Origin: Ornithinicoccus hortensis
GTDB lineage: Bacteria > Actinomycetota > Actinomycetes > Actinomycetales > Dermatophilaceae
DNA length: 64,000 bases
Assembly (NCBI RefSeq): GCF_006716185.1
Contig: NZ_VFOP01000001.1
Location: 868,001-932,000 of the forward strand
Direction of reading: 5' to 3'
Part shown: one piece after another, positions 5,654-23,582 of the stretch
Numbering within the stretch: position 1 is the first letter of the stretch
How the letters are laid out: every line of letters begins with the position of its first letter
Position numbers and translations under genes: made by a program
The notes under the pieces: generated by a model
Database searches by the model: none
Seen by the model: the letters and a program-made list of their open reading frames with translations, nothing else
Told to the model about the DNA's origin: nothing

Positions 5654-6661
5654 ATGAGGAATCGATTGCGAGCGATGACCCTGGTCACTGCGCTCCTGGT
5701 GGGGTTGGCAGGCTGCGGCGGTGGCGGGGGCGGCGACGTCACGATCCTGCGGGTCTCGCTGAACCAGACCGAGACGCATCCCTCCTACATCGCCCTGGAC
5801 AACTACAGCGACCGGTTGGAGGAGCGCAGCGACGGCCGGCTGCGGCTCGACATCTTCCCGAACGAGACGCTCGGCGCGCAGGCGGAGGTGATGCAGCTGG
5901 TCAGCGACGGGATCATCGACATGGCCATCATCTCGGGGTCGCAGCTGGAGAATCTCGATCTGGACTTCCGGGTGCTCGGTCTGCCGGGCCTGTTCGACTC
6001 CGTGGACCACCAGATGCCCGTCGTGCACGACCCGGAGATCGTCGGCGACCTCTACACCTCCCTGGAGGACAGCAACGGGCTCACCGTGCTGGGCGGCCTC
6101 ACGCAGGGCTCCCGGCACATCTACCTCAAGGAAGACATCGACGGCCTCGCCGACCTGCGGGGCAAGAAGATCCGGGTCCAGGAGAGCGAGCTCAACCTGG
6201 CCATGATCCGGGCGCTGGGCGGATCCCCGACGCCGATGGCCTTCGGCGAGGTCTACACGGCGCTGCAGTCCGGGGTGCTGGACGGGGCGGAGAACAACGA
6301 GGTGTCCTACTACACCCAGAAGCACTACGAGGTGGCCCCGTACTTCACCAACTCCAACCACCTGGTCGGTCTGGACTACATGGTGGTCAGCACCGAGAAC
6401 CTGAATGCGCTCACCCCCGAGGACCGGGCCCTGGTGGAGGAGGAGTGGGAGAACACCTGGAAGGACCACACCCAGCTGTGGGAGGAAGCGACCCAGGAGG
6501 CCATCACCGAGACCAAGGCCGGCGGGGCGACCTACATCGAGATCGACCAGGACGAGGTCCGGGAGGCGCTGGAGCCGCTGGCGGACGAGTTCCTGACGAC
6601 ACCCGAGCAACGTGAGCTCTACGACAAGATCCGGGCTGCGGCCGGGGAACAGGAGCGCTGA
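5654..6661 (+). CDS. dctP: TRAP transporter substrate-binding lipoprotein (DctP family)
   Basis: Extracytoplasmic solute receptor of a TRAP transporter, which imports carboxylates or sugar acids on a Na+ or H+ gradient. The 335 residues start with a lipoprotein signal peptide: basic MRNRLR, a hydrophobic stretch, then lipobox LAGC with Cys21, followed by a Gly-rich linker. The DctP fold follows (VTILRVSLNQTETHPSY; ERSDGRLRLDIFPNETLG; LRGKKIRVQE; SPTPMAFGEVYTALQSGVLDGAENN). The arginine of the KIRVQE segment is the usual carboxylate-binding residue of the family. It is followed by dctQ and dctM on the same strand. Substrate is inferred from the neighbouring genes to be a hexuronate or aldonate; sequence alone does not show this. 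Confidence 0.93.
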   Translation: MRNRLRAMTLVTALLVGLAGCGGGGGGDVTILRVSLNQTETHPSYIALDNYSDRLEERSDGRLRLDIFPNETLGAQAEVMQLVSDGIIDMAIISGSQLENLDLDFRVLGLPGLFDSVDHQMPVVHDPEIVGDLYTSLEDSNGLTVLGGLTQGSRHIYLKEDIDGLADLRGKKIRVQESELNLAMIRALGGSPTPMAFGEVYTALQSGVLDGAENNEVSYYTQKHYEVAPYFTNSNHLVGLDYMVVSTENLNALTPEDRALVEEEWENTWKDHTQLWEEATQEAITETKAGGATYIEIDQDEVREALEPLADEFLTTPEQRELYDKIRAAAGEQER

Positions 6662-6662
6662 G

Positions 6663-7169
6663 GTGGAACCCATCAAGAAGGGTCTGGACGGGGTGCTGAG
6701 AGGGGCCTCCGTGGCGCTCTTCGCCCTGCTGGTGGTCGTGGTGGTCTGGCAGGTGTTCACCCGGCAGGTGCTCAACTCGCCGAGCGCCTGGACCGAAGAA
6801 CTGGCGCGCTACACCTTCGTGTGGGTCGGGCTGTTCGCCACGGCTCTCGTCTTCTCCGAGCGCGGGCACATCGCGGTCGACTTCGTGGTCACCAAGTTCT
6901 CCGCCCCGGTCCAGAAGGCGGTCGCCGTCGTCGTGCAACTGTCGATCATCCTGTTCGCCGGGGCGGTCCTGATCTACGGCGGGATCCGCGCCTCCCGGGG
7001 AGCCTGGGGCCAGTCGCTCAGCGCGCTGCCCACCCAGGTGGGCGTGATGTACCTGGTGATGCCGATCACCGGGGTGTTGATCGCCTTCTACGCCGTCTAC
7101 CACCTCCTAGCGGTCCTGCGGGGTGTCGAGGCCGCCATCGAGGTCGACGACAACCCCCAGGTGGTGTGA
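6663..7169 (+). CDS. dctQ: TRAP transporter small permease (DctQ family)
   Basis: Four-helix membrane subunit that binds the large permease. The start is GTG 6663 (MEPIKKGLDGVL), one base after the dctP stop and with GGAG in the last dctP codons as ribosome site; a longer frame into dctP is possible but would add non-family residues. The 168 residues show hydrophobic helices at about 15-38 (VALFALLVVVVVWQVF), 50-70, 88-108 and 130-150, and the family segment WTEELARYTFVWVGLFAT. Translationally coupled to dctP. Confidence 0.92.
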   Translation: MEPIKKGLDGVLRGASVALFALLVVVVVWQVFTRQVLNSPSAWTEELARYTFVWVGLFATALVFSERGHIAVDFVVTKFSAPVQKAVAVVVQLSIILFAGAVLIYGGIRASRGAWGQSLSALPTQVGVMYLVMPITGVLIAFYAVYHLLAVLRGVEAAIEVDDNPQVV

Positions 7170-7172
7170 CCC

Positions 7173-8483
7173 ATGGACCCCATCGCGATCGCCGCCCTCG
7201 TCCTCGTCGCCACCATCGCGGCCGGCATCCTGCTCTCGGTGCCGATTGCCGTCAGCATCGGTCTCGGGTCCTTCTTCGCGGCCATCGTGCTGCTGGACTT
7301 CGAGAAGGCCGCCCTGGTCTCCAGCCAACGGCTGTTCACCGGGATCAACTCCTTCACCCTGTTGGCGATCCCGTTCTTCGTGCTGGCCGGGGTGTTGATG
7401 AATACGGGGGGCATCGCCGGCAGGCTGATCGACGCAGCCAAGGTGTTGGTGGGCAGGACCCCGGCCAGCCTGGCCAACACCAACGTGGTCGCCAACGCGA
7501 TGTTCGGCGCGGTGAGCGGTGCCGCGGTGGCCGCGGCCGCGGCGATCGGCACGGTGATGACGCCACGGATGGAGCAGGAGGGCTACCAGAAGCCCTGGTC
7601 CGCCGCCGTCAACGTGGCCTCGGCGCCCGCGGGCATGCTGATCCCGCCGAGCAACACCTTCATCGTCTACGCGCTGGTGAGCGGATCCTCGATCAGTGCC
7701 CTCTTCATCGCGGGGGTGATCCCCGGCCTGATCTGGGCGGCCGCCTGCATCTTCGTGGTGCTGCTCACCTACCGCCGCTACAGCAGCCCCCAGGCGGCCC
7801 AGCCCGTCACCTTCCGGCAGGCACTGTGGGTGATCTGGCGGGCGGTGCCGTCCCTGCTGATGATCGTGGTCGTGGTGGGCGGCATCGTGGGCGGCTACTT
7901 CACCGCCACCGAGTCCTCGGCCATCGCGGTCGTCTACTGCCTGGTCCTCGGGTTCGTCTACCGCACGATCAAGGTCTCGGACCTGCCGAGGTGCCTGCTC
8001 GACGCGGCACGCACCACGGCCATCATCATGCTCCTGGTCGGTGTCTCGACGGCCCTGTCGTTCGTCATGTCGTTCTCACACATCCCGGAGGCGGTCTCAG
8101 ACCTGCTGCTGGGTATCTCGGAGAGCCCGAACGTGATCCTGTTCATGATGGTGGTCATCCTGCTGTTGGTGGGCACCTTCATGGACCCGACGCCGGCGAT
8201 CCTGATCTTCACCCCGATCTTCCTGCCGATCGTGACCGCCTTCGAGATGGACCCCGTGCACTTCGGCACGATGATCGTCTACGCGCTGAGCGTGGGGGTG
8301 ATCACCCCGCCGGTCGGCAACGTGCTCTTCGTCGGGGCGCGCGTCGCCGGTCTGGGGATCGAGCCGGTGGTGGCCAGGTTGGTCTGGTTCCTGCTCGCCC
8401 TGATCGTCGGGCTGCTGCTCGTCGTGTACGTCGGGCCGCTCTCGTTGTGGCTGCCGGACCAGTTCGGCCTGTTGTCGGAGTAG
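7173..8483 (+). CDS. dctM: TRAP transporter large permease (DctM family)
   Basis: Large membrane subunit (436 residues, about 12 helices) that forms the transport path for the solute delivered by the receptor. Family features: GINSFTLLAIPFFVLAGVLMNTGGI near the N-terminus, NVVANAMFGAVSGAAVA, and the re-entrant PAGMLIPPSNTFIVYAL motif, with a mirrored second half (VGTFMDPTPAILIFTPIFLPI, GVITPPVGNVLFV). Its start is four bases after the dctQ stop. It ends the dctPQM operon and faces larB across a strong hairpin. The transporter is the likely entry point for the substrate of the uxaC-uxuB-gntK-larA-like pathway (inference). Confidence 0.94.
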   Translation: MDPIAIAALVLVATIAAGILLSVPIAVSIGLGSFFAAIVLLDFEKAALVSSQRLFTGINSFTLLAIPFFVLAGVLMNTGGIAGRLIDAAKVLVGRTPASLANTNVVANAMFGAVSGAAVAAAAAIGTVMTPRMEQEGYQKPWSAAVNVASAPAGMLIPPSNTFIVYALVSGSSISALFIAGVIPGLIWAAACIFVVLLTYRRYSSPQAAQPVTFRQALWVIWRAVPSLLMIVVVVGGIVGGYFTATESSAIAVVYCLVLGFVYRTIKVSDLPRCLLDAARTTAIIMLLVGVSTALSFVMSFSHIPEAVSDLLLGISESPNVILFMMVVILLLVGTFMDPTPAILIFTPIFLPIVTAFEMDPVHFGTMIVYALSVGVITPPVGNVLFVGARVAGLGIEPVVARLVWFLLALIVGLLLVVYVGPLSLWLPDQFGLLSE

Positions 8484-8502
8484 CGGTGGGCCAGCGGGCC
8501 GC

Positions 8503-8525
8503 GGGCCGGGTCGCCGACCCGGCCC
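8503..8525. terminator. Bidirectional terminator hairpin between dctM and larB
   Basis: GGGCCGGGTCG and CGACCCGGCCC form an 11-bp perfect inverted repeat around a single C (10 pairs with a 3-base loop in practice). It fills the 45-base gap between two convergent operons (dctPQM forward, gnd-larE-larB reverse), so it can stop both. There is no T tract, as is usual in high-GC actinobacteria. Confidence 0.7.
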
Positions 8526-8528
8526 CGC

Positions 8529-9233
8529 TCAGCCGCGCGGCGCGGTGATCTGTGCCGCGAGGTGCCCGGCGCCGTACCCGTTGTCGATGTTGACCACCGA
8601 TACCCCCGGGGCGCAGGCGTTCAGCATCGACAACAGGGGTGCCAGGCCGGCGAACGCCGCGCCGTAACCGACGGACGTGGGCACCCCGACGACCGGTGCG
8701 GCGGTGAGCCCGGCGACGACGCTGGCCAGCGCCCCGTCCATCCCCGCCACGACGACGACCGCACCGGCGGCGCGGATCGCCGGGACGCGGGCCAGGACCC
8801 GGTGCAGCCCGGCGACCCCGACGTCGACGACCAGGTCGGCGGGACGGCCGAGGTAGCGGGCCGTCAACCACGCCTCGCGCGCGACCGGGATGTCGGCGGT
8901 CCCGGCGCACAGCACGAGGACCTGCTCGCCGGCCGGCTCGGGCACCGTGCCCGGCCAGGCCACCATCCGGGCGAGCGGGTCGTGCTCGGCGTCGGGCAGC
9001 ACCCGGCATACGGCCTGCGCCCGGTCCGGGTCGACCCGGGTGAACAGGATGGTCTGGGCCGACCCCCCGCCCTGGGCGCCCCGGTCCCGCAGGGCGGTGG
9101 CGATGGCGACCAGCTGGTCGACGGACTTCCCCTCGCCCAGCACCGCCTCGGGGTAGCCCCGGCGGGTGCCGCGGTCGAAGTCGAACTCCGCGATCCCGGC
9201 CAACGGGTCGGTCGGTGACGCCTCCTCAGCCAT
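8529..9233 (-). CDS. larB: Nickel-pincer cofactor biosynthesis carboxylase/hydrolase LarB
   Basis: LarB carboxylates C5 of the pyridinium ring of nicotinic acid adenine dinucleotide and hydrolyses the phosphoanhydride, giving the dicarboxylated mononucleotide that LarE thiolates. The 234 residues match: N-terminal LarB segment (AEFDFDRGTRRGYPEAVLGEGK) and a C-terminal AIR-carboxylase-like domain (GTADIPVAREAWLTARYLG; GAVVVVAGMDGALASVVAGL; SVGYGAAFAGLAPLLSMLNAC). Cys207 in LNACAPGVSVVNIDNG is in the position of the substrate-binding Cys221 of the L. plantarum enzyme. Its start overlaps the larE end by 8 bases, so it is the last gene of gnd-larE-larB. A larC gene, needed for nickel insertion, is not in the window. 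Confidence 0.95.
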   Translation of the reverse strand: MAEEASPTDPLAGIAEFDFDRGTRRGYPEAVLGEGKSVDQLVAIATALRDRGAQGGGSAQTILFTRVDPDRAQAVCRVLPDAEHDPLARMVAWPGTVPEPAGEQVLVLCAGTADIPVAREAWLTARYLGRPADLVVDVGVAGLHRVLARVPAIRAAGAVVVVAGMDGALASVVAGLTAAPVVGVPTSVGYGAAFAGLAPLLSMLNACAPGVSVVNIDNGYGAGHLAAQITAPRG

Positions 9234-10095
9234 GCCGCACGGCGACCAGGGGCAGGGTGAACGCGCCGGACTGGATGCCCATCAGGTCCAGGGTGACGAA
9301 CCGGAAGCCGGCGTCCCGCACCCCACGGACGAGCGCATCCCGGGTGTCCGGCGCCACGGCGCGCACGAGCTCCTCCGGCGTGAGCTCCAACCGGGCGATG
9401 TCGCCGTGGTGGCGGACCCGGCAGTCGGTGAAGCCCAGCCCGCGCACGGCCGCCTCGGCGGCATCGATCTGCGCCAGCTTCTCCGGGGTGACCTCCTCGT
9501 GGTGCGGGATGCGCGAGGCCAGGCAGGGGGCGGCGGGCTTGTCGGCGTTCGGCAGGCCCAGCGCCGCCGCCACCGCCCGCACGTCGGCCTTGGTCAGGCC
9601 GGCGTCGGCCAGCGGCCGCAGCACCCGGTGGTTGGTCGCCGCCTGCCCACCCGGCCGGTCGGGGCGCACCGCGTCGTCGGCGTTCTCGCCGTAGGCGACC
9701 GCGGTGAGCCCGTGCTCGGCGACCAGCTGGTCGTCGATCCGGGTGAACAGCTCGTCCTTGCAGTGGAAGCAGCGGTCCGGCCCGTTGGCCCGGTAGGCCG
9801 CCAGGTCTCCCTCGTGCGTCTCCACCTCGACCACCGGCGCACCGATCAGCCGGGCGATGTCGTGGGCCGCGGCACGCTCGTCCCGGGCCAGGCTGGGGGA
9901 GACCCCGAGGATGGCGACGACCCGCTCGGGGCCGAGCAACCGCACCGCGACCGTCAGGAGGGTCGTGGAGTCGACGCCCCCGGAGTAGGCCACGCCGAGC
10001 CTGTCCGGTCGCCCGAGGTGCGGCCGGACGGCCTCGATCAGCGCGGCGACCCGGTCCTCGACCGTCGCCGTGACGTCGACCCGCGACTCAGGCAT
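9226..10095 (-). CDS. larE: Nickel-pincer cofactor sulfur transferase LarE
   Basis: PP-loop ATPase that adenylates the carboxylates made by LarB and inserts sulfur. The 289 residues hold the PP-loop SGGVDS at 38-43 and the family motif KPAAPCLASRIPH with Cys191, which matches the sacrificial Cys176 of the L. plantarum enzyme. It also has Cys109 and Cys112 (RCFHCKDELF); with Cys191 this makes a three-cysteine set like that reported to hold a [4Fe-4S] cluster in Thermotoga LarE, which would allow catalytic instead of sacrificial sulfur donation (inference). The ATG lies 8 bases inside the end of gnd, so the two are coupled. Its product is the cofactor needed by the LarA-like enzyme encoded at 15100. 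Confidence 0.95.
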   Translation of the reverse strand: MPESRVDVTATVEDRVAALIEAVRPHLGRPDRLGVAYSGGVDSTTLLTVAVRLLGPERVVAILGVSPSLARDERAAAHDIARLIGAPVVEVETHEGDLAAYRANGPDRCFHCKDELFTRIDDQLVAEHGLTAVAYGENADDAVRPDRPGGQAATNHRVLRPLADAGLTKADVRAVAAALGLPNADKPAAPCLASRIPHHEEVTPEKLAQIDAAEAAVRGLGFTDCRVRHHGDIARLELTPEELVRAVAPDTRDALVRGVRDAGFRFVTLDLMGIQSGAFTLPLVAVRHG

Positions 10096-11539
10096 CGATG
10101 AGGTCGACCTCCGACCGGTCGCCGGACCAGAGGGTGTGGAACGTCCCTGCCCGGTCGGTCCGCTGGTAGGTGTGGGCCCCGAAGAAGTCGCGCAGCCCCT
10201 GCACCAGCGCCGCGGGGAGCCGCTCGGCCCGCACCGTGTCGTAGTAGGCCAGGGCGGCGCTGAACCCGGGGACGGGCACGCCGGCCGTGGTGGCCACCCC
10301 GACGACGCCGCGCCAGGCGTCCTGGCTCTCGGCCAGCTCGGCCGCCACGCTCGGGGCGGCCAGCAGGGTGGGCAGCTGCGCCCCGGCGAACTCGTCCCGG
10401 ATGCGGTGCAGCAGCCGGGCGCGGATGATGCAGCCGCCCCGCCAGATCCGGGCGACCTCGGACAGGTCGACGTCCCAGTCGTAGGTCCGCGCGGCGGTGC
10501 TGATCTGGTCCAGGCCCTGGGCGTAGGCCACGACCTTGGCCGACCAGAGCGCGGCCCGGACGTTGTCCACGAAGGCCGCCCGGTCGGCGACCGTGATGGT
10601 GCGGTCGGGGCCGGTCAGCGCGCCGCGTCCGGCCTCCCGCAGGCCCGCGTGACCGGAGGTGGACCGGGCGAAGACCGACTCGGCGATGGTGTTGACCGGC
10701 ACGCCGAGCTCCAACGCGATCTGCACGGTCCAGCGCCCGGTGCCCTTCTGCTCGGCGGCGTCCTGGATCAGCTCGACCAGCGGCCGTCCGGTCGCGGCGT
10801 CGACCTGGTCGAGGACCTCGGCGGTGATCTCGATCAGGTAGGAGTCGAGGTCGCCCGCGTTCCACTCCCGGAACACCTCGGCGATCTCGGCGGCGGTCAG
10901 CCCGGCGGCGGACAGCAGATCGTAGGCCTCGGCGATGAACTGCATGTCGGCGTACTCGATACCGTTGTGCACCATCTTCACGAAGTGTCCGGCCCCGTCG
11001 GTGCCCATATAGGCACAGCACGGCTCGCCGTCGACCTTGGCCGAGATGTCCTCCAGGAGCGGACCGAGCGCGGCGTAGGACTCGCGGCTGCCGCCGGGCA
11101 TGATGCTCGGCCCGTGCAGCGCACCCTCCTCGCCACCGGAGATCCCGGCGCCGACGAAGTGCAGGCCGACCCCGCGCAGCGCCGCCTCCCGGCGCCGGGT
11201 GTCCTCGTAGTGGGCGTTGCCGCCGTCGACCACGATGTCGCCCTCCTCCAGGAGGGGGCGCAACTGCTCGATCACCGCGTCGGTGCCCTTGCCGGCCTGC
11301 ACCATGATGATCACCTTGCGGGGCCTCTCGAGGGCGGCGACGAACTCCTCCAGGGTGGGGGCCGCGATGAAGGTGCCGGTGGAGCCGAACTCGGTGTCGA
11401 AGGCCTCCGTCTTGGCGACGGTGCGGTTGTAGACGGCGACGGTGTGGCCGTGGGAGGCGAAGTTGCGGGCCAGGTTGGAACCCATCACCGCCAGGCCGAT
11501 CACCCCCACCTGGGCGAGCGGGGTCTCTGGTGCGGCCAT
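10088..11539 (-). CDS. gnd: 6-phosphogluconate dehydrogenase, decarboxylating
   Basis: Oxidises 6-phosphogluconate to ribulose 5-phosphate and CO2 with reduction of NADP+. The start ATG at 11539 (MAAPETPLAQVGVIG) has GAGGAG 8 bases upstream; the open frame runs 37 codons further back without family similarity. The 483 residues are the full homodimeric type: GLAVMGSNLARNFASHGH nucleotide-binding start, NRT for NADP, GISGGEEGALHGPSIMPGG substrate loop, and the active-site segment HFVKMVHNGIEYADMQ. First gene of gnd-larE-larB, divergent from uxaC. In this context it removes the 6-phosphogluconate made by gntK. It could also serve the general oxidative pentose phosphate pathway. Confidence 0.96.
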   Translation of the reverse strand: MAAPETPLAQVGVIGLAVMGSNLARNFASHGHTVAVYNRTVAKTEAFDTEFGSTGTFIAAPTLEEFVAALERPRKVIIMVQAGKGTDAVIEQLRPLLEEGDIVVDGGNAHYEDTRRREAALRGVGLHFVGAGISGGEEGALHGPSIMPGGSRESYAALGPLLEDISAKVDGEPCCAYMGTDGAGHFVKMVHNGIEYADMQFIAEAYDLLSAAGLTAAEIAEVFREWNAGDLDSYLIEITAEVLDQVDAATGRPLVELIQDAAEQKGTGRWTVQIALELGVPVNTIAESVFARSTSGHAGLREAGRGALTGPDRTITVADRAAFVDNVRAALWSAKVVAYAQGLDQISTAARTYDWDVDLSEVARIWRGGCIIRARLLHRIRDEFAGAQLPTLLAAPSVAAELAESQDAWRGVVGVATTAGVPVPGFSAALAYYDTVRAERLPAALVQGLRDFFGAHTYQRTDRAGTFHTLWSGDRSEVDLIDA

Positions 11540-11651
11540 CGGGCGACTCCTCGGGTCGTAGGCGGGCGGGGCGGACACTCTCTGCAGCCAGGGGCGGACG
11601 AGGGCTGGGCCCTCCCGGCACACTCTGGCCGAGTCGCACCCCTGAGGCAAG

Positions 11652-11664
11652 GGACGTTACGTCC
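11652..11664. promoter_or_regulatory. Palindrome in the gnd-uxaC divergent gap (site 1)
   Basis: GGACGTTACGTCC is a perfect inverted repeat with 6-base arms around one T. It lies 112 bases before the gnd start and 82 before the uxaC start. Together with site 2 it is a candidate operator for a regulator that controls both operons; no regulator gene is present in the locus. Confidence 0.4.
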
Positions 11665-11678
11665 GGAACGGGGACGGC

Positions 11679-11692
11679 GGCAACGTGTTGCC
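11679..11692. promoter_or_regulatory. Palindrome in the gnd-uxaC divergent gap (site 2)
   Basis: GGCAACGTGTTGCC has 6-base inverted arms (GGCAAC/GTTGCC) around GT, and is followed at once by a partial third copy of the half site (ATTGCCGC). Its size and position, 53 bases before uxaC, fit an operator of a LacI- or GntR-type sugar-acid regulator (inference). Confidence 0.45.
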
Positions 11693-11745
11693 AAGGATTG
11701 CCGCAGGGTCTGGCCGGGCCGCGAGATATCGGCTTGTATGGGGCC

Positions 11746-13155
11746 ATGTCGCCGAACGGATTGCCCCCTGACCGGTTGCTTCCCGCGGACCCGGCCACCC
11801 GTGACGTCGCCCGGCGGATCTACCGGTCGGTGCAGGACCAGCCGATCATCAGCCCGCACGGCCACGTCCCTCCGGAGTGGTTGGCCCAGGACCTCCCGTT
11901 CAAGGACCCGACCACCCTGTTGCTGTCCCCGGACCACTACATCTTCCGGATGCTGCACGCGGCCGGGGTCCCGCTGGGGGAGCTGGGCGTGGGGGGTGCT
12001 GAGCTCGACGAGGCCGGGTCCCGCCGGGCCTGGGCGCACCTGTGCCGGCACTGGGACCTGTTCCTCGGCACGCCGGTCCGGTACTGGCTGGAGGACCAGC
12101 TGGTCGACATCTTCGGGGTCACCGAGCGGCTCAGCGAAGCGACGGCCGATGCCAGCTACGACCGGATCGCGGAGGTGATCGCCGGGGACAACTTCCGCCC
12201 CCGCGCGCTGATGGACCGGTTCGGCATCACCGTGCTGGCCACGACCGACGACCCGTGCGACGACCTGTCCCACCATGCGGCGCTCGCCGCCGACGACAGC
12301 TTCACCCCACGGGTCATCCCCACCTTCCGCCCGGACAAGTACCTCGAGCCGGGACGCGCCGACTTCGCCGAGTCGGTGACCCGACTGGGCGAGGTCTCGG
12401 GGGAGGACACCGGCGACTACGCCGGCTACCTCCGGGCGCTGGAGGCACGGCGGCGCTACTTCGTCGAGCACGGTGCGGTGTCCAGCGACCACAGCCACGT
12501 CGACGTCCAGACCCTCACCCTCGACGACGGGGAGGCCAGCCAGATCTACGCCGCCGCCCTGGGCGGGACCGCCACCGAGCAGGAGAGCACCGCGCTGCGC
12601 CGGCACATGCTGGGCCAGATGGCGCGCATGGCCACCGACGACGGTCTCGTGATGACCCTGCACCCCGGCTCCTACCGGAACCACCACGGACCGACCCTGG
12701 CGGCGCACGGACCCGACACCGGCCACGACATCCCGGTCGGGGTGGAGTTCACCAAAGGCCTGGCGGACCTGCTCGGCCGGTACGGCACCGCCGAGGGGTT
12801 CCAGCTCGTCCTGTTCACCCTCGACGAGACCGTGTTCAGCCGGGAGATCGCGCCGCTGGCCGGCTTCTACCCCAGCGTGTATGCCGGCGCGCCGTGGTGG
12901 TTCCTGGACGCCCCCCGGGCGATCGGACGCTACCGGGCGGCGGTGACCGAGACCGTCGGCTTCTACCGGACCTCCGGGTTCATCGACGACACCCGGGCGT
13001 TCTGCTCGATCCCGGCCCGGCACGACATGTCGCGCCGGGTCGACGCCGGCTACCTGGCCGGCCTCGTCGTCGAGCACCAGTTCGAGGAGGAGGATGCCCT
13101 ACGCATCGCGACCGACCTCGTGACCACCATTCCGCAGAAGGCGTTCAAACTGTGA
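11746..13155 (+). CDS. uxaC: Glucuronate isomerase
   Basis: Isomerises D-glucuronate to D-fructuronate (and D-galacturonate to D-tagaturonate). The 469 residues match the UxaC family in length and order: N-terminal metal-site motif SPHGHVPPEW with His38 and His40, then LLLSPDHYIFRMLHAAGV, the central ATTDDP segment, HPGSYRNHHGP, and the C-terminal PWWFLDAP...RRVDAGYLAGLV. The ATG at 11746 is the only start that fits the family; it has no good ribosome site, so the mRNA may be nearly leaderless. First gene of a four-gene operon in which every stop overlaps the next start. Glucuronate rather than galacturonate is favoured by the downstream genes. Confidence 0.95.
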   Translation: MSPNGLPPDRLLPADPATRDVARRIYRSVQDQPIISPHGHVPPEWLAQDLPFKDPTTLLLSPDHYIFRMLHAAGVPLGELGVGGAELDEAGSRRAWAHLCRHWDLFLGTPVRYWLEDQLVDIFGVTERLSEATADASYDRIAEVIAGDNFRPRALMDRFGITVLATTDDPCDDLSHHAALAADDSFTPRVIPTFRPDKYLEPGRADFAESVTRLGEVSGEDTGDYAGYLRALEARRRYFVEHGAVSSDHSHVDVQTLTLDDGEASQIYAAALGGTATEQESTALRRHMLGQMARMATDDGLVMTLHPGSYRNHHGPTLAAHGPDTGHDIPVGVEFTKGLADLLGRYGTAEGFQLVLFTLDETVFSREIAPLAGFYPSVYAGAPWWFLDAPRAIGRYRAAVTETVGFYRTSGFIDDTRAFCSIPARHDMSRRVDAGYLAGLVVEHQFEEEDALRIATDLVTTIPQKAFKL

Positions 13156-14522
13156 CACCGCTGACTCGAGCCGAGCACGGACGGCCCCCCGCTCCCGTCC
13201 GGATGGTCCACCTGGGTGTGGGCAACTTCTTCCGGGCCCACCAGGCCTGGTTCACCGAGCACGCCCCCGACGCGGCCGACTGGGGCTACGCCGCCTTCAC
13301 CGGACGCTCGGCCACGATCGCCGAGGAGTTGGGCGGACAGGACAACCTCTACACGCTGCTGGTCAGGGAGGTCGACGGGGACCGCCCGGAGGTGATCTCC
13401 TCGCTGACCGCGGTGCATCCCGGGGGCGACCTGGGGGCGCTGCGCGGCTACTTCGCGTCCCCGGACCTGGCCCTGGTGACCAGCACCGTCACCGAGGCGG
13501 GCTACCGCCGTGACTCCTCGGGCGGGCTCGACCTGTCCGACCCGGACGTGCAGGCCGACATCGCCGCGCTGCGGGAGGACCCGGCGGCCGACGCGGTGCG
13601 CACCACCCCCGGCCGGCTCGTCGCCGGCCTCCTGGCGCGGCGCGCGGCCGGTGCCGGGGCGTTGGCGCTGGTGCCGTGCGACAACGTGCCGGACAACGGC
13701 GCGATGGTCGGTCGGGTCGTCCGGGAGCTCGCCGCCGAGGTCGACGACACGCTGGTGCCCTGGATCGAGCAGCACGTCGGCGTGGTCACCACGATGGTCG
13801 ACCGGATCACCCCGCGCGCCACCGACGAGGACCGTGCCGCGGTCGCGGAGGCCACCGGGGTCGACGACCCGCAGGCCGTGGTCACCGAGCCGTTCGCGGA
13901 GTGGGTCCTGGCCGGGGAGTTCCCGGCCGGCCGACCCGCCTGGGACCGCGCCGGGGCGACCTTCGTGGACGACGTGCGGCTGCACGAGGAGCGCAAGCTG
14001 TGGTTCCTCAACGGCGCCCACTCGCTGATGGCCTACACCGCGCCGCTGCGCGGGCACGAGACCGTCGCGGAGGCGATCGCCGACCCCACCGTCCGGGGCT
14101 GGGTCGAGGACTGGTGGGACCTGGCCGCCGGCCACCTGAAGGTCGATGAGGCAGCGGTCGCCGCCTACCGGGAGGCGCTCCTGGACCGGTTCGCCAACCA
14201 CCGGATCCGGCACCTGCTGGCCCAGATCGCGGCCGACGGGTCGCAGAAGGTGCCGATCCGGTTCGGCCCGGTGCTGGCCGCCGAGGCCGCGGCCGGCAAC
14301 CGGCCCGAGGCGGTCACCCGACCGGTCGCCGCCTGGCTGGCCCACCTGCACGGGCACGGGGTGCCGGTGCAGGACGCCCAGGAGGCGGTGGTGGGGGACC
14401 TGGCGGCCGCCGAGCCCGCCGACGCCGTCCGCACCCTCCTGGGGTGGATGGGCGTCGACCCCGACCCGGCGCTGGTCGAGCAGGTCCTGGCCCAGGCGGC
14501 CGGGTTCGAGGAGGCGGTCTGA
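13152..14522 (+). CDS. uxuB: Mannitol-dehydrogenase-family oxidoreductase, probable fructuronate reductase
   Basis: NAD-dependent polyol/aldonate dehydrogenase of the long-chain mannitol dehydrogenase family; the neighbour UxaC makes reduction of D-fructuronate to D-mannonate the most likely reaction. The start is GTG 13152, overlapping the uxaC stop (GTGA). The 456 residues begin with the nucleotide-binding motif GVGNFFRAHQAWFTEH and carry the family catalytic triad at the right spacing: Lys282, Asn287 and His290 (KLWFLNGAH). The C-terminal helical domain follows. Members also act on mannitol, arabinitol or tagaturonate, so substrate rests on context. Gene name given for the fructuronate reductase role. 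Confidence 0.85.
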   Translation: MTPLTRAEHGRPPAPVRMVHLGVGNFFRAHQAWFTEHAPDAADWGYAAFTGRSATIAEELGGQDNLYTLLVREVDGDRPEVISSLTAVHPGGDLGALRGYFASPDLALVTSTVTEAGYRRDSSGGLDLSDPDVQADIAALREDPAADAVRTTPGRLVAGLLARRAAGAGALALVPCDNVPDNGAMVGRVVRELAAEVDDTLVPWIEQHVGVVTTMVDRITPRATDEDRAAVAEATGVDDPQAVVTEPFAEWVLAGEFPAGRPAWDRAGATFVDDVRLHEERKLWFLNGAHSLMAYTAPLRGHETVAEAIADPTVRGWVEDWWDLAAGHLKVDEAAVAAYREALLDRFANHRIRHLLAQIAADGSQKVPIRFGPVLAAEAAAGNRPEAVTRPVAAWLAHLHGHGVPVQDAQEAVVGDLAAAEPADAVRTLLGWMGVDPDPALVEQVLAQAAGFEEAV

Positions 14523-15103
14523 TGTCGGGCGACCAGACGGGCGCCGCGCCCCGGACCCACCACGTCGTCGTGATCGGGGTGTCCGGGTCCGGCAAGAGCA
14601 CCATCGCGGCGGAGCTGGCGGGGCGGCTCAACCTACGGTTCGCCGACGCGGACGACTTCCACCCCCCGGCCAACGTCGCCAAGATGTCGGAGGGCATCCC
14701 GCTGACCGACGAGGACCGACTGCCCTGGCTGCAGTCCCTCGCCACCTGGATGCGGGAGCGGGGTGCGGCGGGGGAGTCGACCGTGCTGGCTTGCTCGGCG
14801 CTCAAGCGCTCCTATCGGGACCTGCTGCGGGAGGGCGGCGGGCAGGTGGCCTTCCTGCACCTGGACGGCCCTGCAGAGACGATCCTTTCCCGGATGCGGA
14901 CCCGGGACCACTTCATGCCACCGAGCCTGCTGGAGTCCCAGGTCGCCACCCTGGAGCCGCTCGAGGCCGACGAGCCGGGCACCGCCCTGGACCTGACCCT
15001 GACCCGCGAAGAGATCGTGGACCGCGCCGAGGACTGGTTGGTCGGTCCCGGCGGGCTCCCGGCACCCCCCGACCGCCCCCACCGAGGAGGAGACCCGCGA
15101 TGA
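14522..15103 (+). CDS. gntK: Gluconokinase
   Basis: Phosphorylates D-gluconate to 6-phosphogluconate with ATP. The 193 residues show the P-loop GVSGSGKST at 19-27, the family segment FADADDFHPPANVAKMSEGIPL that binds gluconate, LACSALKRSYRDLLR, and the LID-like region HFMPPSLLESQVATLEPLE. The C-terminal 25 residues are a Pro/Gly-rich extension. The ATG overlaps the uxuB stop and the stop overlaps the start of the LarA-like gene (ATGA). Its presence directly after uxaC-uxuB, where mannonate dehydratase and KDG kinase would be expected, is the key clue that mannonate is turned into gluconate here. Confidence 0.95.
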   Translation: MSGDQTGAAPRTHHVVVIGVSGSGKSTIAAELAGRLNLRFADADDFHPPANVAKMSEGIPLTDEDRLPWLQSLATWMRERGAAGESTVLACSALKRSYRDLLREGGGQVAFLHLDGPAETILSRMRTRDHFMPPSLLESQVATLEPLEADEPGTALDLTLTREEIVDRAEDWLVGPGGLPAPPDRPHRGGDPR

Positions 15104-16410
15104 CCTGGTTCACGCACGAGGACGACACCATCACGCGCGCCACCATCGAGGAGCTGGTGCGCCGCACCCTGGCCGAGTCCAAGGAGCGACTCGGCATCAC
15201 GGCATACGGCCGGGTGTTGCTGTTACCGCCCGACATCACCCGCGCCCACGCGGGCGTCGGGTGGATCACCGAGTACTTCTACAACCTCCTCACCGAGGAG
15301 GGCGCCGAGGTCCACGTCATCCCGACGCTGGGCCAGCACGTGCCGCACACGCCGGAGGACAACACCTGGATGTTCGGCTCCATCCCCGAGGAGCGGATCC
15401 ACAAGCACGACTGGAAGGACGGGGTGACCAACGTCGGCACCGTCCCGGCCGAGGTGGTCAGGGAGTACACCGGGGGCGCGGTCGACTGGGAGATGCCGAT
15501 CGACCTCAACACGATGACGGTCACGCAGGAGTGGGACCTGATCATCAACATCGGCCACGTCGTGCCGCACGAGGTGCTCGGCTTCGCCAACCACAACAAG
15601 AACTACTTCATCGGCCTCGGGGGCAAGCGGCTCCTCGGCTCCTCGCACATGGCCTCGGCCGTCTACGGGATCGAGAACAACCTGGGCAACCTGCTGACGC
15701 CCGTCCGGCGCTGCTTCAACTACGCCGAGGAGCGCTTCCTGTCCGAGCTGAAGGACATCTACTTCCAGGTGGTGATGGACTACGACGACGACGGCGCCCT
15801 GGTGCACACCGGGGTGTATGTCGGGGACGACCTGGACACCTACCTGGACGCGGCCCGGGCCAGCCGGGCGCAGAACATCACCGTCTTCGACGAGCCGGTC
15901 GACAAGATCGTGGCGGTCATGCAGGCCGACGAGTTCCGGGCCACCTGGGTGGCGAACAAGGCGGTGTACCGGACCCGGATGGCGATCGCCGACGGCGGCG
16001 AGCTGCTGGTGATCGCGCCGGGGGTCACCCGGTTCGGGGAGCAGCCGGAGGTCGACGACCTGATCCGCAAGTACGGCTACCTCTCGCAGGCCGAGGTGCT
16101 GGAGCTCTACGCGACCCAGGAGGACATGCAGGACATCCCGCACGGCACCGCCCACCTGGTGCACGGGTCAAGCGAGGGGCGGTTCACCATCACCTACGCC
16201 CCCGGCGGGCTGACCCGCGAGGAGATCGAGGGGGTCGGGTATGCCTACATGGACGTCGAGGAGGCCCAGCGGCGCTACGACCCGGCCGTGATGCAGGACG
16301 GCTGGAACACCATGCCGGACGGCGAGCGGGTCTTCTACATCTCCACCCCGTCCGCGGGGCTGTGGGCCACCCGGGAGAAGCTCGGCGGCCGGGAGGACGC
16401 GACCGACTGA
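15100..16410 (+). CDS. LarA-family nickel-pincer enzyme, probable D-mannonate/D-gluconate 2-epimerase
   Basis: Member of the LarA (DUF2088) superfamily of C2 racemases and epimerases of 2-hydroxy acids that use the nickel-pincer nucleotide. In the 436 residues the LarA active-site residues can be matched by motif: Asp45 and Arg48 (PDITRAHAG), His80 (LGQHVPHTPED), His157 (VVPHEVLGF), Lys167 (NHNKNYFIGLGG, the covalent cofactor lysine, Lys184 in L. plantarum), His183 (GSSHMAS) and probably Lys287. GAGGAGGAG lies 8 bases before the ATG, which overlaps the gntK stop. LarB and LarE, which make the cofactor, are in the divergent operon. Mannonate and gluconate differ only at C2, and this gene sits between a mannonate maker and a gluconate user. 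A GntE-type gluconate 2-epimerase has been described in this superfamily. Family certain; substrate inferred. Confidence 0.88.
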   Translation: MTWFTHEDDTITRATIEELVRRTLAESKERLGITAYGRVLLLPPDITRAHAGVGWITEYFYNLLTEEGAEVHVIPTLGQHVPHTPEDNTWMFGSIPEERIHKHDWKDGVTNVGTVPAEVVREYTGGAVDWEMPIDLNTMTVTQEWDLIINIGHVVPHEVLGFANHNKNYFIGLGGKRLLGSSHMASAVYGIENNLGNLLTPVRRCFNYAEERFLSELKDIYFQVVMDYDDDGALVHTGVYVGDDLDTYLDAARASRAQNITVFDEPVDKIVAVMQADEFRATWVANKAVYRTRMAIADGGELLVIAPGVTRFGEQPEVDDLIRKYGYLSQAEVLELYATQEDMQDIPHGTAHLVHGSSEGRFTITYAPGGLTREEIEGVGYAYMDVEEAQRRYDPAVMQDGWNTMPDGERVFYISTPSAGLWATREKLGGREDATD

Positions 16411-16425: not shown

Positions 16426-17121
16426 TCAGCCCGGACGGACCACGCCCACCAGCGGCACGCTGCCGGAGCGGGTCGACTGCTCCTGGAGGACGCGCTCGAC
16501 CACCTCGGCCGGGAGCGCGCCGGCGGAGCAGCCCAGCACCCGCGGGTGGATCCGGTGTGGGCCCGGGCCGGTCGGCCCGACCCGGTCGTGGGTCCGGACC
16601 ACCGCGACCGGGCGACCCAGCAGGAACTCCAGCCAGGTGCTGACCGCGTCGGCCTCGTCGGGGAACAGTGCGGGCACGACCAGACCGGCCTCCGGGCCGG
16701 GGGTCAGGGCCCGCTCGGCGACCGGCCCGGCCAGTTCGCAGAACCGGGCCACGCGCCGCTCCCGCGGGGTGCCCAGCGACCGGAATGCCGCGTCGAGGAG
16801 GGCGGCCGCGTCCCAGTTGCGGGCCGCGTAGTGCAGCCGGGCCGTGCCCTCGACGCGGTCCCCGTGGGGGAGCACCAGGGCGGCCAGCAGCCGGGCCAAC
16901 GGTCCGGGGCGCTGGTCGGCGAGCCGCTCGGCGTTGCCGAGCCAGGCCATCAGCAGCCCGTCGTCGACCATCACGGTCTCCCGGTCACCGGAGGCGGGTG
17001 GCAGGCACCGGGCCACGTGGGCGGCCAATTCGCCGGAGGCCACCCCGGGCAGCGGCCCGCCCGACAGCGGTGGTGCGGGCAGCATCCGCCACGGGGTCAG
17101 CGGCATCCCGTCGGTGCGCAT
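16426..17121 (-). CDS. Uncharacterised protein, 231 residues
   Basis: I do not recognise the family. The ATG at 17121 (MRTDGMPLTPWRML) has AGAAGG about 8 bases upstream on its strand; a later in-frame ATG (MPLTPW) is possible. The protein is soluble, without signal peptide or membrane segments, with helical Ala/Leu-rich stretches (ERLADQRPGPLARLLAALVLP; RNWDAAALLDAAFRSLG) and a C-terminal VPLVGVVRPG strand. Its 3' end is 15 bases from the end of the LarA-like gene on the other strand, and it diverges from the PhzE-like gene across a 172-base gap. Nothing links it to either function. Confidence 0.75.
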   Translation of the reverse strand: MRTDGMPLTPWRMLPAPPLSGGPLPGVASGELAAHVARCLPPASGDRETVMVDDGLLMAWLGNAERLADQRPGPLARLLAALVLPHGDRVEGTARLHYAARNWDAAALLDAAFRSLGTPRERRVARFCELAGPVAERALTPGPEAGLVVPALFPDEADAVSTWLEFLLGRPVAVVRTHDRVGPTGPGPHRIHPRVLGCSAGALPAEVVERVLQEQSTRSGSVPLVGVVRPG

Positions 17122-17211
17122 GGCAGGGCCTTCTCTCACGGTGCGGGGGCGCCTCGTGCGCACCCGTCGTTCCACGGTAGGCACGGCGGATGAGCCCAGG
17201 CTGTGGATTCG

Positions 17212-17225
17212 GTGAAAGATTTCAC
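17212..17225. promoter_or_regulatory. Palindrome upstream of the PhzE-like gene
   Basis: GTGAAAGATTTCAC is a perfect inverted repeat with 6-base arms around GA, 68 bases before the PhzE-like start and 90 before the divergent gene. Its low GC content stands out locally and it fits a dimeric repressor or activator site; no regulator is known. Confidence 0.4.
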
Positions 17226-17293
17226 AACCTTCGGTGGCCGGCCGGTGCCCGGCGGGCGACGGCGGGGGGCGGGAGGATGGGAGGATTCCCTGC

Positions 17294-19219
17294 ATGTATC
17301 CGGTCCTCGACGCCATCCTCCGAGCACCCGCCGACCAGGCCTGGGCGCTGCTGTGGCGGGAGGGCCAGGAGACGGTCGAGGTGCTGCGCGGGACCACCGC
17401 GGACGTCGCGCGGCTCGCCGACATCCCGGCGGCCGAGGAGGGGCACCCGGTGCTGGCGATGGTCCCGTTCCGGCAGATCGCCGAGCGCGGCTTCGCCGTG
17501 CGGGACGACGGCACCCCGCTGCGGGTGCTGACCGGCACGGCATACGAGCGGGTCCCGGTCGAGGCGGTGGTGGCCGCCCTGCCGACCGGTGAGGTCGAGG
17601 TGACCGACGAACGGTTCAGCGTCTCCGACGAGGACTACGCCGCGATCGTCTCCCGGGTCATCGAGGAGGAGATCGGCAACGGCGAGGGTGCCAACTTCGT
17701 GATCCGCCGGGACGTGCTGGCCCACACCGCCACGGAGCCGGCGACCGCCGCCCTGACCTGGTTGCGGCGGCTGCTCACCGACGAGCGGGGCGCCTACTGG
17801 ACCTTCGCGGTGCACACCCCCGGGCACACCCTGGTCGGGGCGACGCCGGAGCGGCACGTGAGCGTCGAGGGCGGTCGGGTGCGGATGAACCCGATCTCGG
17901 GCACCTTCCGCCACCCCGCCGACATGGCGGACCTGGAGCCCGCCTTCCGCAGCTTCATCGCCGACACCAAGGAGACCGAGGAGCTCTTCATGGTGGTCGA
18001 CGAGGAGATGAAGATGATGTCCCAGATCTGCACCGACGGCGGACGCATCACCGGCCCGTACCTCAAGCAGATGGCCCACCTGACGCACACCGAGTACCTC
18101 CTCGACGGGCGCTCGGACGCCGACCCGCGCGACGTGCTGCGGCTGACCATGTTCGCCCCCACGGTCACCGGCTCGCCGATGGAGAACGCCTGCACCGTGA
18201 TCACCCGGCACGAGCCCGGGGGCCGCGGGTACTACTCCGGGGTGCTGGCCCTCCTCGAGCGGGACGCCGACGGCGGCGAACAGCTGGACGCGCCCATCCT
18301 GATCCGGACCGCGCACCTGGACGACGAAGGGACCGTGACGGTGAGCGCGGGCGCCACCCTGGTCCGCCACTCCGACCCCGTCTCGGAGGTGGCCGAGACC
18401 ACGGCCAAGGCCAGCGGGATGCTCGCCGCGCTCGGACTGCGCCCCCGGCGGGACATCTCGTATGCCGTCCCGCTGGCGGAGCTCGATGGCGTGGCCGAGG
18501 CACTGGGGGCGCGCAACGAGTCGCTGTCCCCGTTCTGGCTGTCCCCGCAGGAGGCCCGCCCGGACCCGGACCTCCTCGGGCGCCGGGTGCTGGTCGTGGA
18601 CGCCGCGGACACCTGGACCCAGATGCTGGCCCACCAGGTGCGCCACTTCGGCATGGCTGCCCGCGTGGCGCGCTGGGACGAGGTGACCGAGCAGGACCTG
18701 GCCGCGGTCGACCTGGTGCTCTTCGGGCCCGGGCCGGGCGACCCGGACGATCCGGACGACCCGCGGGTGACCCGGCTGCGGGACCTGCTCGCCGCGCGCC
18801 TGGCGGCCGGCGGGCCGGTCCTGGCGGTCTGCCTGAGCCACCAGATCCTGTCCCGCCTGGCCGGCCTGGACGTGACCCGGCTGGAGCGGCCCAACCAGGG
18901 CGTCCAGCTCCCGGTGGACCTCTGGGGGCATCCGGCACGGATCGGGTTCTACAACACCTTCGTCCCCCGCCCCGGCGACGCCGTGGTCGAGCGGGCCGGC
19001 GTCGGCACCCCCCTGGAGGCCGCGGTCGACCCGGCCCACGACGCGGTGGTCGGGCTGCGCGGCCCGGGCGTCGCCTCGATTCAGGGCCACGCCGAGTCCG
19101 TGCTCTCGCGGGACGGGCTCGGCGTGCTGCACCGGTTGATCCGGCACGCGCTGGGCCACGAAGCGGGCTTCGACACCGAAATGTCGGACATCCGACGCCC
19201 TGGCGGCAAAGTGTCATAG
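17294..19219 (+). CDS. PhzE-type fused chorismate amination enzyme (ADIC or anthranilate synthase family)
   Basis: Single chain joining a TrpE/MST-type chorismate enzyme to a glutamine amidotransferase, the PhzE architecture, which makes 2-amino-2-deoxyisochorismate in phenazine synthesis. GGGAGGA lies 8 bases before the ATG. Of 641 residues, about 90-420 are the chorismate-binding domain (MNPISGTFRHP at 199, EELFMVVDEEMKMM, GSPMENAC at 293) and about 430-625 the amidotransferase with nucleophile Cys513 in VCLSHQ and His599/Glu601 in GHAES. CLSHQ instead of CLGHQ is as I recall it from PhzE proteins. MNPISGT differs from the PIKGT of PabB, excluding aminodeoxychorismate synthase. No phzD, F, B, G or trp gene is nearby, so the product could be ADIC or anthranilate for an unseen pathway. 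The adjacent siderophore operon may be chance. Confidence 0.85.
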   Translation: MYPVLDAILRAPADQAWALLWREGQETVEVLRGTTADVARLADIPAAEEGHPVLAMVPFRQIAERGFAVRDDGTPLRVLTGTAYERVPVEAVVAALPTGEVEVTDERFSVSDEDYAAIVSRVIEEEIGNGEGANFVIRRDVLAHTATEPATAALTWLRRLLTDERGAYWTFAVHTPGHTLVGATPERHVSVEGGRVRMNPISGTFRHPADMADLEPAFRSFIADTKETEELFMVVDEEMKMMSQICTDGGRITGPYLKQMAHLTHTEYLLDGRSDADPRDVLRLTMFAPTVTGSPMENACTVITRHEPGGRGYYSGVLALLERDADGGEQLDAPILIRTAHLDDEGTVTVSAGATLVRHSDPVSEVAETTAKASGMLAALGLRPRRDISYAVPLAELDGVAEALGARNESLSPFWLSPQEARPDPDLLGRRVLVVDAADTWTQMLAHQVRHFGMAARVARWDEVTEQDLAAVDLVLFGPGPGDPDDPDDPRVTRLRDLLAARLAAGGPVLAVCLSHQILSRLAGLDVTRLERPNQGVQLPVDLWGHPARIGFYNTFVPRPGDAVVERAGVGTPLEAAVDPAHDAVVGLRGPGVASIQGHAESVLSRDGLGVLHRLIRHALGHEAGFDTEMSDIRRPGGKVS

Positions 19220-19507: not shown

Positions 19508-20323
19508 CTAGCGCGGGCTGGCCAGCGGCACGACGAGCGGGGTGTCCGTCTCGGGGTCCGGGATGACGCGGCACCCGAGCCCGAAGACGTGGGAGACCAC
19601 GTCCGCGGTGAGGATCGTCCGCGGATTGCCCTCGACGACGATCTCCCCGGCCTTCATGACGATCAGGTGCGTGGCGTAGCGGGCGGCCTGGTTGAGGTCG
19701 TGCAGCACCGCCACGATGGTGCGGCCCTCGCGGTTCAGCCGCGCGCAGATCTCCAGCAGGTCGAACTGGTGGGCGATGTCGAGGAAGGTGGTCGGCTCGT
19801 CCAGCAGCAACAACTCGGTCTGCTGGGCGAGCACGAGGGACACCCAGACCCGCTGGCGCTGACCGCCGGACAGCTCCGAGACGTGTCGGTCGACCAGGTC
19901 CTGGGCGCCGGTGGCCAGCAGCGCCTGTGCTACCGCCTCCTCGTCCTCGCGGGACCACTGCTTCAGCAGCGTCTGGTGCGGGAACCGGCCGCGGCCGACC
20001 AGGTCGCGCACGGTGATCCCGTCCGGGACCAGCGGGCTCTGCGGTAGCAGCGCCAGCCGGCGGGCGAGCTCCTTGGGACGGAAGCTGCTCAGGGCCTTGC
20101 CGTCCAGGGTCACCTGCCCGGCCTCCGGCTTGAGCGTGCGGGCGAACGACTTCAGCAGGGTGGACTTGCCGCAGGCGTTCGGGCCGATGATGACGGTGAA
20201 GCTGCCCGGCGGGATCTCGGTGCTCAGGTCGCGGCTCACCACCCGGCCCTCGTAGGAGAGGGTGACCCCGTCGGCGGCCAGGCGCGGACCCCCTGCGGTC
20301 TCGGCGAGCGGTAGCGCGGTCAC
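19508..20323 (-). CDS. Ferric-siderophore ABC transporter ATPase (FepC/FecE family)
   Basis: Energises import of ferric siderophore through the two permeases encoded upstream. The 271 residues contain Walker A (GPNACGKST), the Q-loop (LLPQSPLVPDGITV), signature LSGGQRQRVW, Walker B (LLLLDEPTTFLD) and the H-loop (VAVLHDLNQAARYATH), all intact. The start is GTG 20323, overlapping the stop of the preceding permease by four bases. Last gene of the operon SIP-binding protein-permease-permease-ATPase. Confidence 0.95.
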   Translation of the reverse strand: MTALPLAETAGGPRLAADGVTLSYEGRVVSRDLSTEIPPGSFTVIIGPNACGKSTLLKSFARTLKPEAGQVTLDGKALSSFRPKELARRLALLPQSPLVPDGITVRDLVGRGRFPHQTLLKQWSREDEEAVAQALLATGAQDLVDRHVSELSGGQRQRVWVSLVLAQQTELLLLDEPTTFLDIAHQFDLLEICARLNREGRTIVAVLHDLNQAARYATHLIVMKAGEIVVEGNPRTILTADVVSHVFGLGCRVIPDPETDTPLVVPLASPR

Positions 20324-23547: not shown

Positions 23548-23582
23548 GGGGGGCCTTTCGTACAGGCGGGTGGTTGCCGCCG

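Follow-up and report, generated by a model that had tools for sequence, protein, structure and literature searches.

Does a cluster of hexuronate genes in Ornithinicoccus hortensis carry D-glucuronate into the pentose phosphate pathway by way of an epimerase that turns D-mannonate into D-gluconate, and how is the metal cofactor of that epimerase completed in a genome in which the nickel-inserting enzyme LarC has no match? The window analyzed here is a stretch of 64,000 bases (positions 868001 to 932000; 72% GC) from the one-contig O. hortensis genome of 3,935,242 bases. Between window positions 5654 and 16410, the genes dctPQM of a tripartite ATP-independent periplasmic (TRAP) transporter on the plus strand are followed by larB, larE, and gnd on the minus strand and then, again on the plus strand, by uxaC, a uxuB-like gene, gntK, and a gene for a LarA homologue. 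The cluster is best read as one for D-glucuronate catabolism in which a LarA homologue of group 18 would act as a mannonate/gluconate epimerase feeding the pentose phosphate pathway, and we place the probability of this reading at about 0.75.

We infer the reactions, their substrates, and the manner of metal insertion from sequence as follows. Glucuronate brought in by the TRAP importer would be converted by UxaC to D-fructuronate, which the uxuB-like reductase would reduce to D-mannonate. The group-18 LarA homologue, carrying a pincer nucleotide cofactor, would invert C2 of D-mannonate to give D-gluconate, which would be phosphorylated by GntK, and Gnd would oxidize the product to ribulose 5-phosphate. 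By this path carbon would reach the pentose phosphate pathway without UxuA, KdgK, or 2-keto-3-deoxy-6-phosphogluconate (KDPG) aldolase. LarB and LarE are products of the same cluster and would make the thiolated precursor pyridinium-3,5-bisthiocarboxylic acid mononucleotide (P2TMN) for the LarA homologue. Because LarC was not found in the genome, either a different protein or the LarA homologue itself would have to insert the metal.

The cluster is real and well preserved. In the plus-strand operon the overlaps between neighboring genes are 4 bases (uxaC and the uxuB-like gene), 1 base (the uxuB-like gene and gntK, TGATG), and 4 bases (gntK and the LarA homologue gene), and in the divergent minus-strand operon both gnd and larE overlap the following gene by 8 bases. 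The coordinates confirm the two overlapping operons and the TRAP importer described in an earlier reading of the sequence alone (here, the sequence-only reading). The TRAP genes are convergent with larB and lie outside its operon. All 10 reading frames are open, with 0.91 to 0.98 GC at third codon positions. For an operator in the gap between gnd and uxaC, only one weak 10-base pair was detected, and alignment of the gap with two relatives gave no clear palindrome.

Gene linkage was surveyed at the best 80 of 457 candidate LarA-homologue loci, with flanks of up to 10 kb, some of them shorter, and with the window's own proteins as queries, by which divergent LarB or LarE could be missed. LarB and LarE were each encoded near the LarA homologue at 26 of the 80 loci and UxaC at 18 (13 at ≥45% identity). 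The full arrangement of the window was kept at two Ornithinimicrobium loci (dctP of one would lie beyond the locus end), and in 17 of the 21 named actinobacterial genomes examined, larE lay no more than 11 kb from uxaC, with the LarA homologue elsewhere in 10 of the 17; no such pair was seen in the remaining 4. Since two Ornithinimicrobium loci keep the arrangement and larE lies near uxaC in so many of these genomes, it is not a product of chance. The conserved uxaC-uxuB-gntK-larA linkage that had been expected was found in full order only in the window and the two Ornithinimicrobium loci, but the association of larB and larE with uxaC is widely kept. The cluster is patchy, because the group-18 model had no match in three further genomes of the family in our sample; their weak matches to the LarB model are probably PurE, which the window larB gene also resembles.

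Gene neighbors in relatives point to glucuronate as well. At one Georgenia locus (L184), a beta-glucuronidase gene (865 bits, cut-off 544) is found between larE and uxaC, together with a gene for a glycoside-pentoside-hexuronide (GPH) protein that is closest to the glucuronide transporter model (477 bits, cut-off 528). A verrucomicrobium (L083) has, in order, uxaC, a short-chain dehydrogenase/reductase (SDR) gene, the LarA homologue gene, larE, and larB, with genes for UxaE and a major facilitator superfamily (MFS) transporter running divergently. At another locus (L088, from position 4383), two tandem LarA homologues with 68% and 44% identity to that of the window follow gnd.

The LarA homologue belongs to LarA-homologue (LarAH) group 18, as identified by its match to NF052594 ("NPN_18_hexonate, nickel-dependent putative hexonate epimerase"; NPN, nickel-pincer nucleotide). 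The Lar_N domain, PF09861, was also detected (39.8 bits, cut-off 23.3), and the closest named relatives are two Ornithinimicrobium sequences with 86% identity. The sole solved chain that matched at E 0.001 was PDB 4nar (E 5.3e-32), which we take to be TM0442 of Thermotoga maritima, that is, GntE2. The residue numbers R41, K164, and H180 given for GntE2 in PMC7583248 fit the 4nar chain in the alignment. Seven catalytic and cofactor residues of LarA (D72, R75, H108, H174, K184, H200, and K298), as listed in the same article, correspond to D45, R48, H80, H157, K167, H183, and K287 of the window protein, and all seven were invariant in the 81 rows of an alignment of the window protein with those of the 80 loci. 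The loop pair E158-V159 and W283 were likewise kept in 81 of 81 rows, in agreement with the EV/S loop and helix-11 tryptophan signature of groups 18 to 20, W283 being our reading of the helix-11 tryptophan from the alignment. The invariant catalytic residues, the E-V pair, and W283 lead us to expect a working NPN-type enzyme of the group 18 to 20 kind.

The binding protein of the importer suggests what enters the cell. The best solved chain for the window DctP was 4n91, which is Apre_1383, a D-glucuronate-specific TRAP binding protein (PMC7660916). Six of the seven ligand residues of Apre_1383 were matched by eye to N37, Q38, R154, R174, N214, and D241 of DctP, the seventh, a glutamate, not being placeable by spacing. 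The imported substrate predicted from DctP is probably D-glucuronate. The reductase is less clearly defined. The uxuB-like protein, a member of the mannitol-dehydrogenase family, scored 243 of the 600 bits required by the D-arabinitol dehydrogenase model and 241 of the 603 bits required by the fructuronate reductase model, and because these scores are about equal and far below cut-off, its name rests on context.

Several observations weigh against the proposed route. The uxuB-like protein falls below the fructuronate reductase cut-off, and among the 80 loci Gnd was encoded near the LarA homologue at 12, UxuB at 8, and GntK at 2, which leaves this genus as the main support for the second half of the route; the name of the reductase and the narrow gntK linkage are the weakest links. 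UxuA had a match in 12 of 50 named group-18 genomes, in 11 of them over cut-off (these genomes represent 50 of the 80 loci, picked mainly for longer contigs, and encode core group-18 enzymes). One KDPG aldolase is encoded in the O. hortensis genome (G000:C1:83421, 206 bits; TIGR01182 229 bits, cut-off 156). No KdgK over cut-off was found there with NF052444 (best score, 40.4 of 400 bits), an insensitive model that passes in 1 of 14 controls, and the dehydratase search of the genome was confined to UxuA and ManD. The absence of LarC leaves cofactor maturation unexplained. Finally, cell extracts of Lactobacillus suebicus, as reported in PMC6978723, phosphorylate mannonate first and do not convert mannonate to gluconate.

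On the other side, UxuA (PF03786) had no match in the O. hortensis genome or in 38 of the 50 named group-18 genomes. The four enolase-superfamily matches found in the O. hortensis genome in the search for ManD were two o-succinylbenzoate synthases, enolase, and one protein of unknown specificity, which had the best ManD score, 133.6 of 550 bits; none of the four is taken as ManD. The expected lack of UxuA is supported. A KDPG aldolase does exist in the genome; its gene clusters with GntR regulators and a ribokinase-like kinase and is unlinked to uxaC. The conversion of D-mannonate to D-gluconate is the most likely reading for the LarA homologue, and the biochemistry of the sequence-only reading, in which this enzyme joins the two sugar acids, is probably right.

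Features of the O. hortensis cluster, with positions given in the window
Feature	Position	Strand	Supporting evidence
dctP, TRAP solute-binding protein, probably for D-glucuronate	5654-6661	+	TIGR00787, NF037995
dctQ, TRAP small permease	about 6612-7169, true start uncertain	+	PF04290, 109.5 bits
dctM, TRAP large permease	7173-8483	+	TIGR00786, 393 bits
larB, nicotinic acid adenine dinucleotide (NaAD) carboxylase/hydrolase of nickel-pincer cofactor synthesis	8529-9233	-	NF033503, 255 bits (cut-off 175)
larE, sulfur insertase with three conserved cysteines	9226-10095	-	TIGR00268, 269 bits (cut-off 150)
gnd, 6-phosphogluconate dehydrogenase	10088-11539	-	NF006765, 696 bits (cut-off 413)
Divergent region between gnd and uxaC	11540-11745		206 bases between the two starts
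uxaC, glucuronate isomerase	11746-13155	+	NF002794, 540 bits (cut-off 387); PDB 2q01, uronate isomerase, E 6.9e-134
uxuB-like long-chain dehydrogenase, putative D-fructuronate reductase giving D-mannonate	13152-14522	+	PF01232, PF08125; NCBIfam matches below cut-off; named by context
gntK, gluconokinase	14522-15103	+	TIGR01313, 186 bits (cut-off 114)
LarA homologue, group 18, putative D-mannonate/D-gluconate 2-epimerase	15100-16410	+	NF052594, 579 bits (cut-off 500)

Beyond the LarA homologue gene, a minus-strand reading frame at 16426-17538 had no Pfam match, and minus-strand genes at 19508-24416 for an ATP-binding cassette (ABC) transporter ATPase, a periplasmic binding protein, and a siderophore-interacting protein probably serve iron-siderophore uptake.

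The second question concerns the cofactor. According to PMC11796402 and PMC9283937, it is LarC that adds nickel to P2TMN, at the expense of CTP. LarB and LarE are shared with the LarB-LarE-LarC pathway of Lactiplantibacillus plantarum, but LarC had no match here. The sequence-only reading named LarB and LarE, both over cut-off here, as the makers of the cofactor; the missing LarC had gone unnoticed. The LarE cysteines C109, C112, and C191 were kept in 70 of 70 LarE rows, so numerous as in T. maritima LarE but with a CxxC motif in place of the CxxxC reported there (PMC9283937). No match to the LarC family PF01969 was found in the O. hortensis genome, and TIGR00299, searched up to E 10, gave only two matches of 15.9 and 12.8 bits. 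A divergent LarC copy was rejected: of the two weak matches, one is an amidohydrolase (TIGR01891 over cut-off) and the other is an MFS-like protein.

The absence of LarC is frequent among genomes with group-18 enzymes. Of the 50 named genomes, 14 had a LarC match (one split with a TGA codon, one partial) and 36 had none, while LarB was over cut-off in 49, the exception also being LarC-less. Genomes without LarC belong to Actinomycetota, Acidobacteria, Planctomycetes, a verrucomicrobium, and a few others; among the 36, Terriglobus roseus has a complete genome with LarB, LarE, and a LarA homologue, and the others are drafts or metagenome bins. larB or larE was located beside the LarA homologue gene in 1 of the 14 LarC-bearing genomes versus 16 of the 36 LarC-less ones (flanks were short in 4 and 5 of these, respectively). 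Mapped onto a 56-row LarB tree, LarC presence requires 8 changes, at least 5 of them on starred branches, and LarC has thus been lost or gained repeatedly. In a sample of 396 genomes drawn evenly from the actinobacterial phylum, LarC was absent from 7 of the 232 LarB-bearing genomes, which were picked by eye at E below about 1e-45 (231 were over the model cut-off), and only O. hortensis and one other of the 7 (G163) are at least 90% complete.

Some further arrangements of these genes were observed. In a Propionibacteriaceae bin without a LarC match, a 593-residue protein (locus L056, 13038-14816, minus strand) fuses an N-terminal LarE to a C-terminal LarB, both over cut-off. In Micropruina glycogenica (L067, G416), LarC falls into two segments, one of them interrupted by a TGA; it is either a split version or a gene in decay. 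Two genomes of the genus g134, G163 and G270 (the latter 82% complete), have LarB but no match to LarC or to the group-18 model, and possibly hold another LarC-less system. Conversely, 22 genomes of the phylum sample, some of them incomplete bins, have LarC without LarB at about 1e-45.

Group-18 LarA homologues carry histidines that may bear on metal insertion. H153 and H165 were invariant in 81 of 81 group-18 rows and absent from all 20 other LarA homologues in a comparison that omitted the duplicate L036 and the locus-end fragments L150, L157, and L158. H50 was also invariant in the 81 rows but is the weakest of the three, since most of the 20 others are gapped there and one has histidine. 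H83 was dropped as a group-specific residue because 4 of the 20 also have it. A distant relative (39% identity) in G136, a genome with LarC, has N, Q, and Y at positions 50, 153, and 165. Counted along the sequence, the cofactor lysine and catalytic histidine are two to four residues away from the extra histidines, a distance which suggests that they are near the cofactor, and they may equally bind hexonate hydroxyls. LarC-bearing group-18 members also keep them, and no position of the LarA homologue tracked LarC presence at the thresholds used (36 LarC-less and 14 LarC-bearing rows).

We give about an even chance to the proposal that the metal-pincer cofactor of group-18 LarA homologues is completed without LarC, in which LarB and LarE would supply P2TMN, nickel or another metal would be inserted either inside the LarA homologue, with help from H153, H165, and perhaps H50, or by an undescribed insertase, and LarC would have been lost several times. 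LarA has been found with a nickel-free form of the cofactor besides NPN, according to PMC11796402, and can thus accept the unmetallated precursor. Metallation in situ is possible, and an insertase of another kind is about as likely.

Another explanation, which concerns the missing LarC alone, is that an unrelated nickel insertase encoded elsewhere in the genome has replaced it and that the LarA homologue works as a regular NPN enzyme. The nickel ligand H183 and K167 are invariant in all 81 rows, as expected of an enzyme with a metal-pincer cofactor, and we regard this explanation as a serious if tentative one, somewhat short of an even chance. Against it, the window cluster contains no spare gene, and no extra gene was conserved beside larB or larE across lineages in a comparison confined to gene neighborhoods, so that an unlinked gene may still serve. 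In this comparison, open frames were clustered around the 80 loci and the window and from 20 further stretches, all centered on LarB, of which 19 came from LarC-less genomes and one from the LarC-bearing Micropruina. The neighborhoods held LarE, UxaC, UxuB, Gnd, SDR, UxaE, kinases, transporters, and lineage-specific genes; no LarC replacement stood out among them, with gene calling that was crude, produced many antisense shadow frames, and was not exhaustive.

The order of the last steps could also differ, with a GntK-like kinase making 6-phosphomannonate and the LarA homologue acting as a 6-phosphomannonate 2-epimerase that yields 6-phosphogluconate. The gene set of the window is compatible with both orders, and phosphorylation first was demonstrated in L. 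suebicus cell extracts, the epimerase gene being described as unidentified (PMC6978723). That organism, whose genome has uxuA, differs from O. hortensis in its hybrid isomerase/phosphoketolase route, with a mannonate kinase followed by a 6-phosphomannonate 2-epimerase, as outlined in the same source. The kinases associated with the group vary: GntK in the window, an FGGY kinase nearest to the gluconokinase model but below cut-off at a second Georgenia locus (L045), and, in Flaviflexus (L178, 6498-7568), a PfkB kinase encoded between gnd and larE. The last is nearest, again below cut-off, to the kinase half of a fusion model of 2-keto-4-hydroxyglutarate (KHG)/KDPG aldolase and kinase, and related frames were clustered at four other loci. 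This variety does not settle the order. However, in the assays of PMC7583248 both GntE enzymes accepted unphosphorylated mannonate, and it seems unlikely that phosphorylation precedes epimerization.

It is less probable still that the substrate of the LarA homologue is a different hexonate or an aldarate, such as altronate from tagaturonate, or glucarate/mannarate. An aldarate or uronate was suggested as substrate for group 19, where the Km for mannonate is 120 mM (PMC7583248), UxaE beside the verrucomicrobial cluster indicates that galacturonate may also feed the route, and the score of the reductase leaves its substrate unsettled. Nevertheless, the gluconokinase and Gnd encoded next to the LarA homologue in the window need gluconate, and the signals for glucuronate, namely, DctP and the beta-glucuronidase, lead to the mannonate branch. 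Decay or inactivity of the cluster after loss of LarC, one of the three cofactor-making enzymes in L. plantarum (PMC11796402), is very improbable in view of open frames with strong third-position GC, the lack of a LarC match in 36 of the 50 named genomes, LarA homologues that keep all active-site residues, and the repeated changes of LarC presence on starred branches of the LarB tree.

The preferred reading, epimerization of D-mannonate to D-gluconate, has precedents in other groups. A hexuronate route from mannonate to gluconate was proposed for Thermotoga by Rodionova in 2012 (cited in PMC6978723 and PMC7583248), and the key enzyme was assayed in other groups: D-gluconate 2-epimerase activity is reported for groups 19 (Corynebacterium glutamicum) and 20, with GntE assayed on D-mannonate, and the substrate of group 18 was hypothesized to be a hexonate (PMC7583248). 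An oomycete GntE is described in PMC11770544. The claim of the sequence-only reading that the full pathway was undescribed does not stand in view of this work. The logic of the T. maritima route with GntE2 is the same (isomerase-route enzymes to mannonate, C2 epimerization, gluconokinase, and the pentose phosphate pathway), as are the catalytic residues by alignment to 4nar. In contrast, the T. maritima enzyme is of group 20, that organism, a control here, matches both UxuA and LarC, neither of which is matched in O. hortensis, and larB, larE, and gnd lie inside the O. hortensis cluster. GntE1 of C. glutamicum is likewise an actinobacterial LarA homologue with mannonate/gluconate activity and a uronate-linked context, but its native substrate is doubted by its authors, given the Km cited above (PMC7583248), and C. 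glutamicum, a control here, matches LarC. The excerpts of PMC7583248 that treat group 18 do not mention a LarC-less state.

In the open-licence papers searched, no paper on the whole route in actinobacteria was found, nor was a LarC-less system, although the original LarC papers lay outside this search and such a system may be published. Two points seem new: the assignment of mannonate/gluconate as the probable substrate of group 18, drawn from the gene neighbors of relatives and the D-glucuronate-type TRAP binding protein, and the frequent absence of LarC, which implies either that nickel insertion is done differently or that the cofactor differs.

By the proposed route, carbon from glucuronate would pass directly into the pentose phosphate pathway. 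Standard annotation can overlook such a nickel-dependent branch of hexuronate catabolism, since UxuA is missing and the epimerase is labeled no more than a putative hexonate epimerase, and a concrete substrate for LarAH group 18 can now be tested. Formation of the cofactor's metal-carbon bond is the known task of LarC, and genomes without this enzyme may point to a second cyclometallase, an apoenzyme that metallates itself, or a different cofactor.

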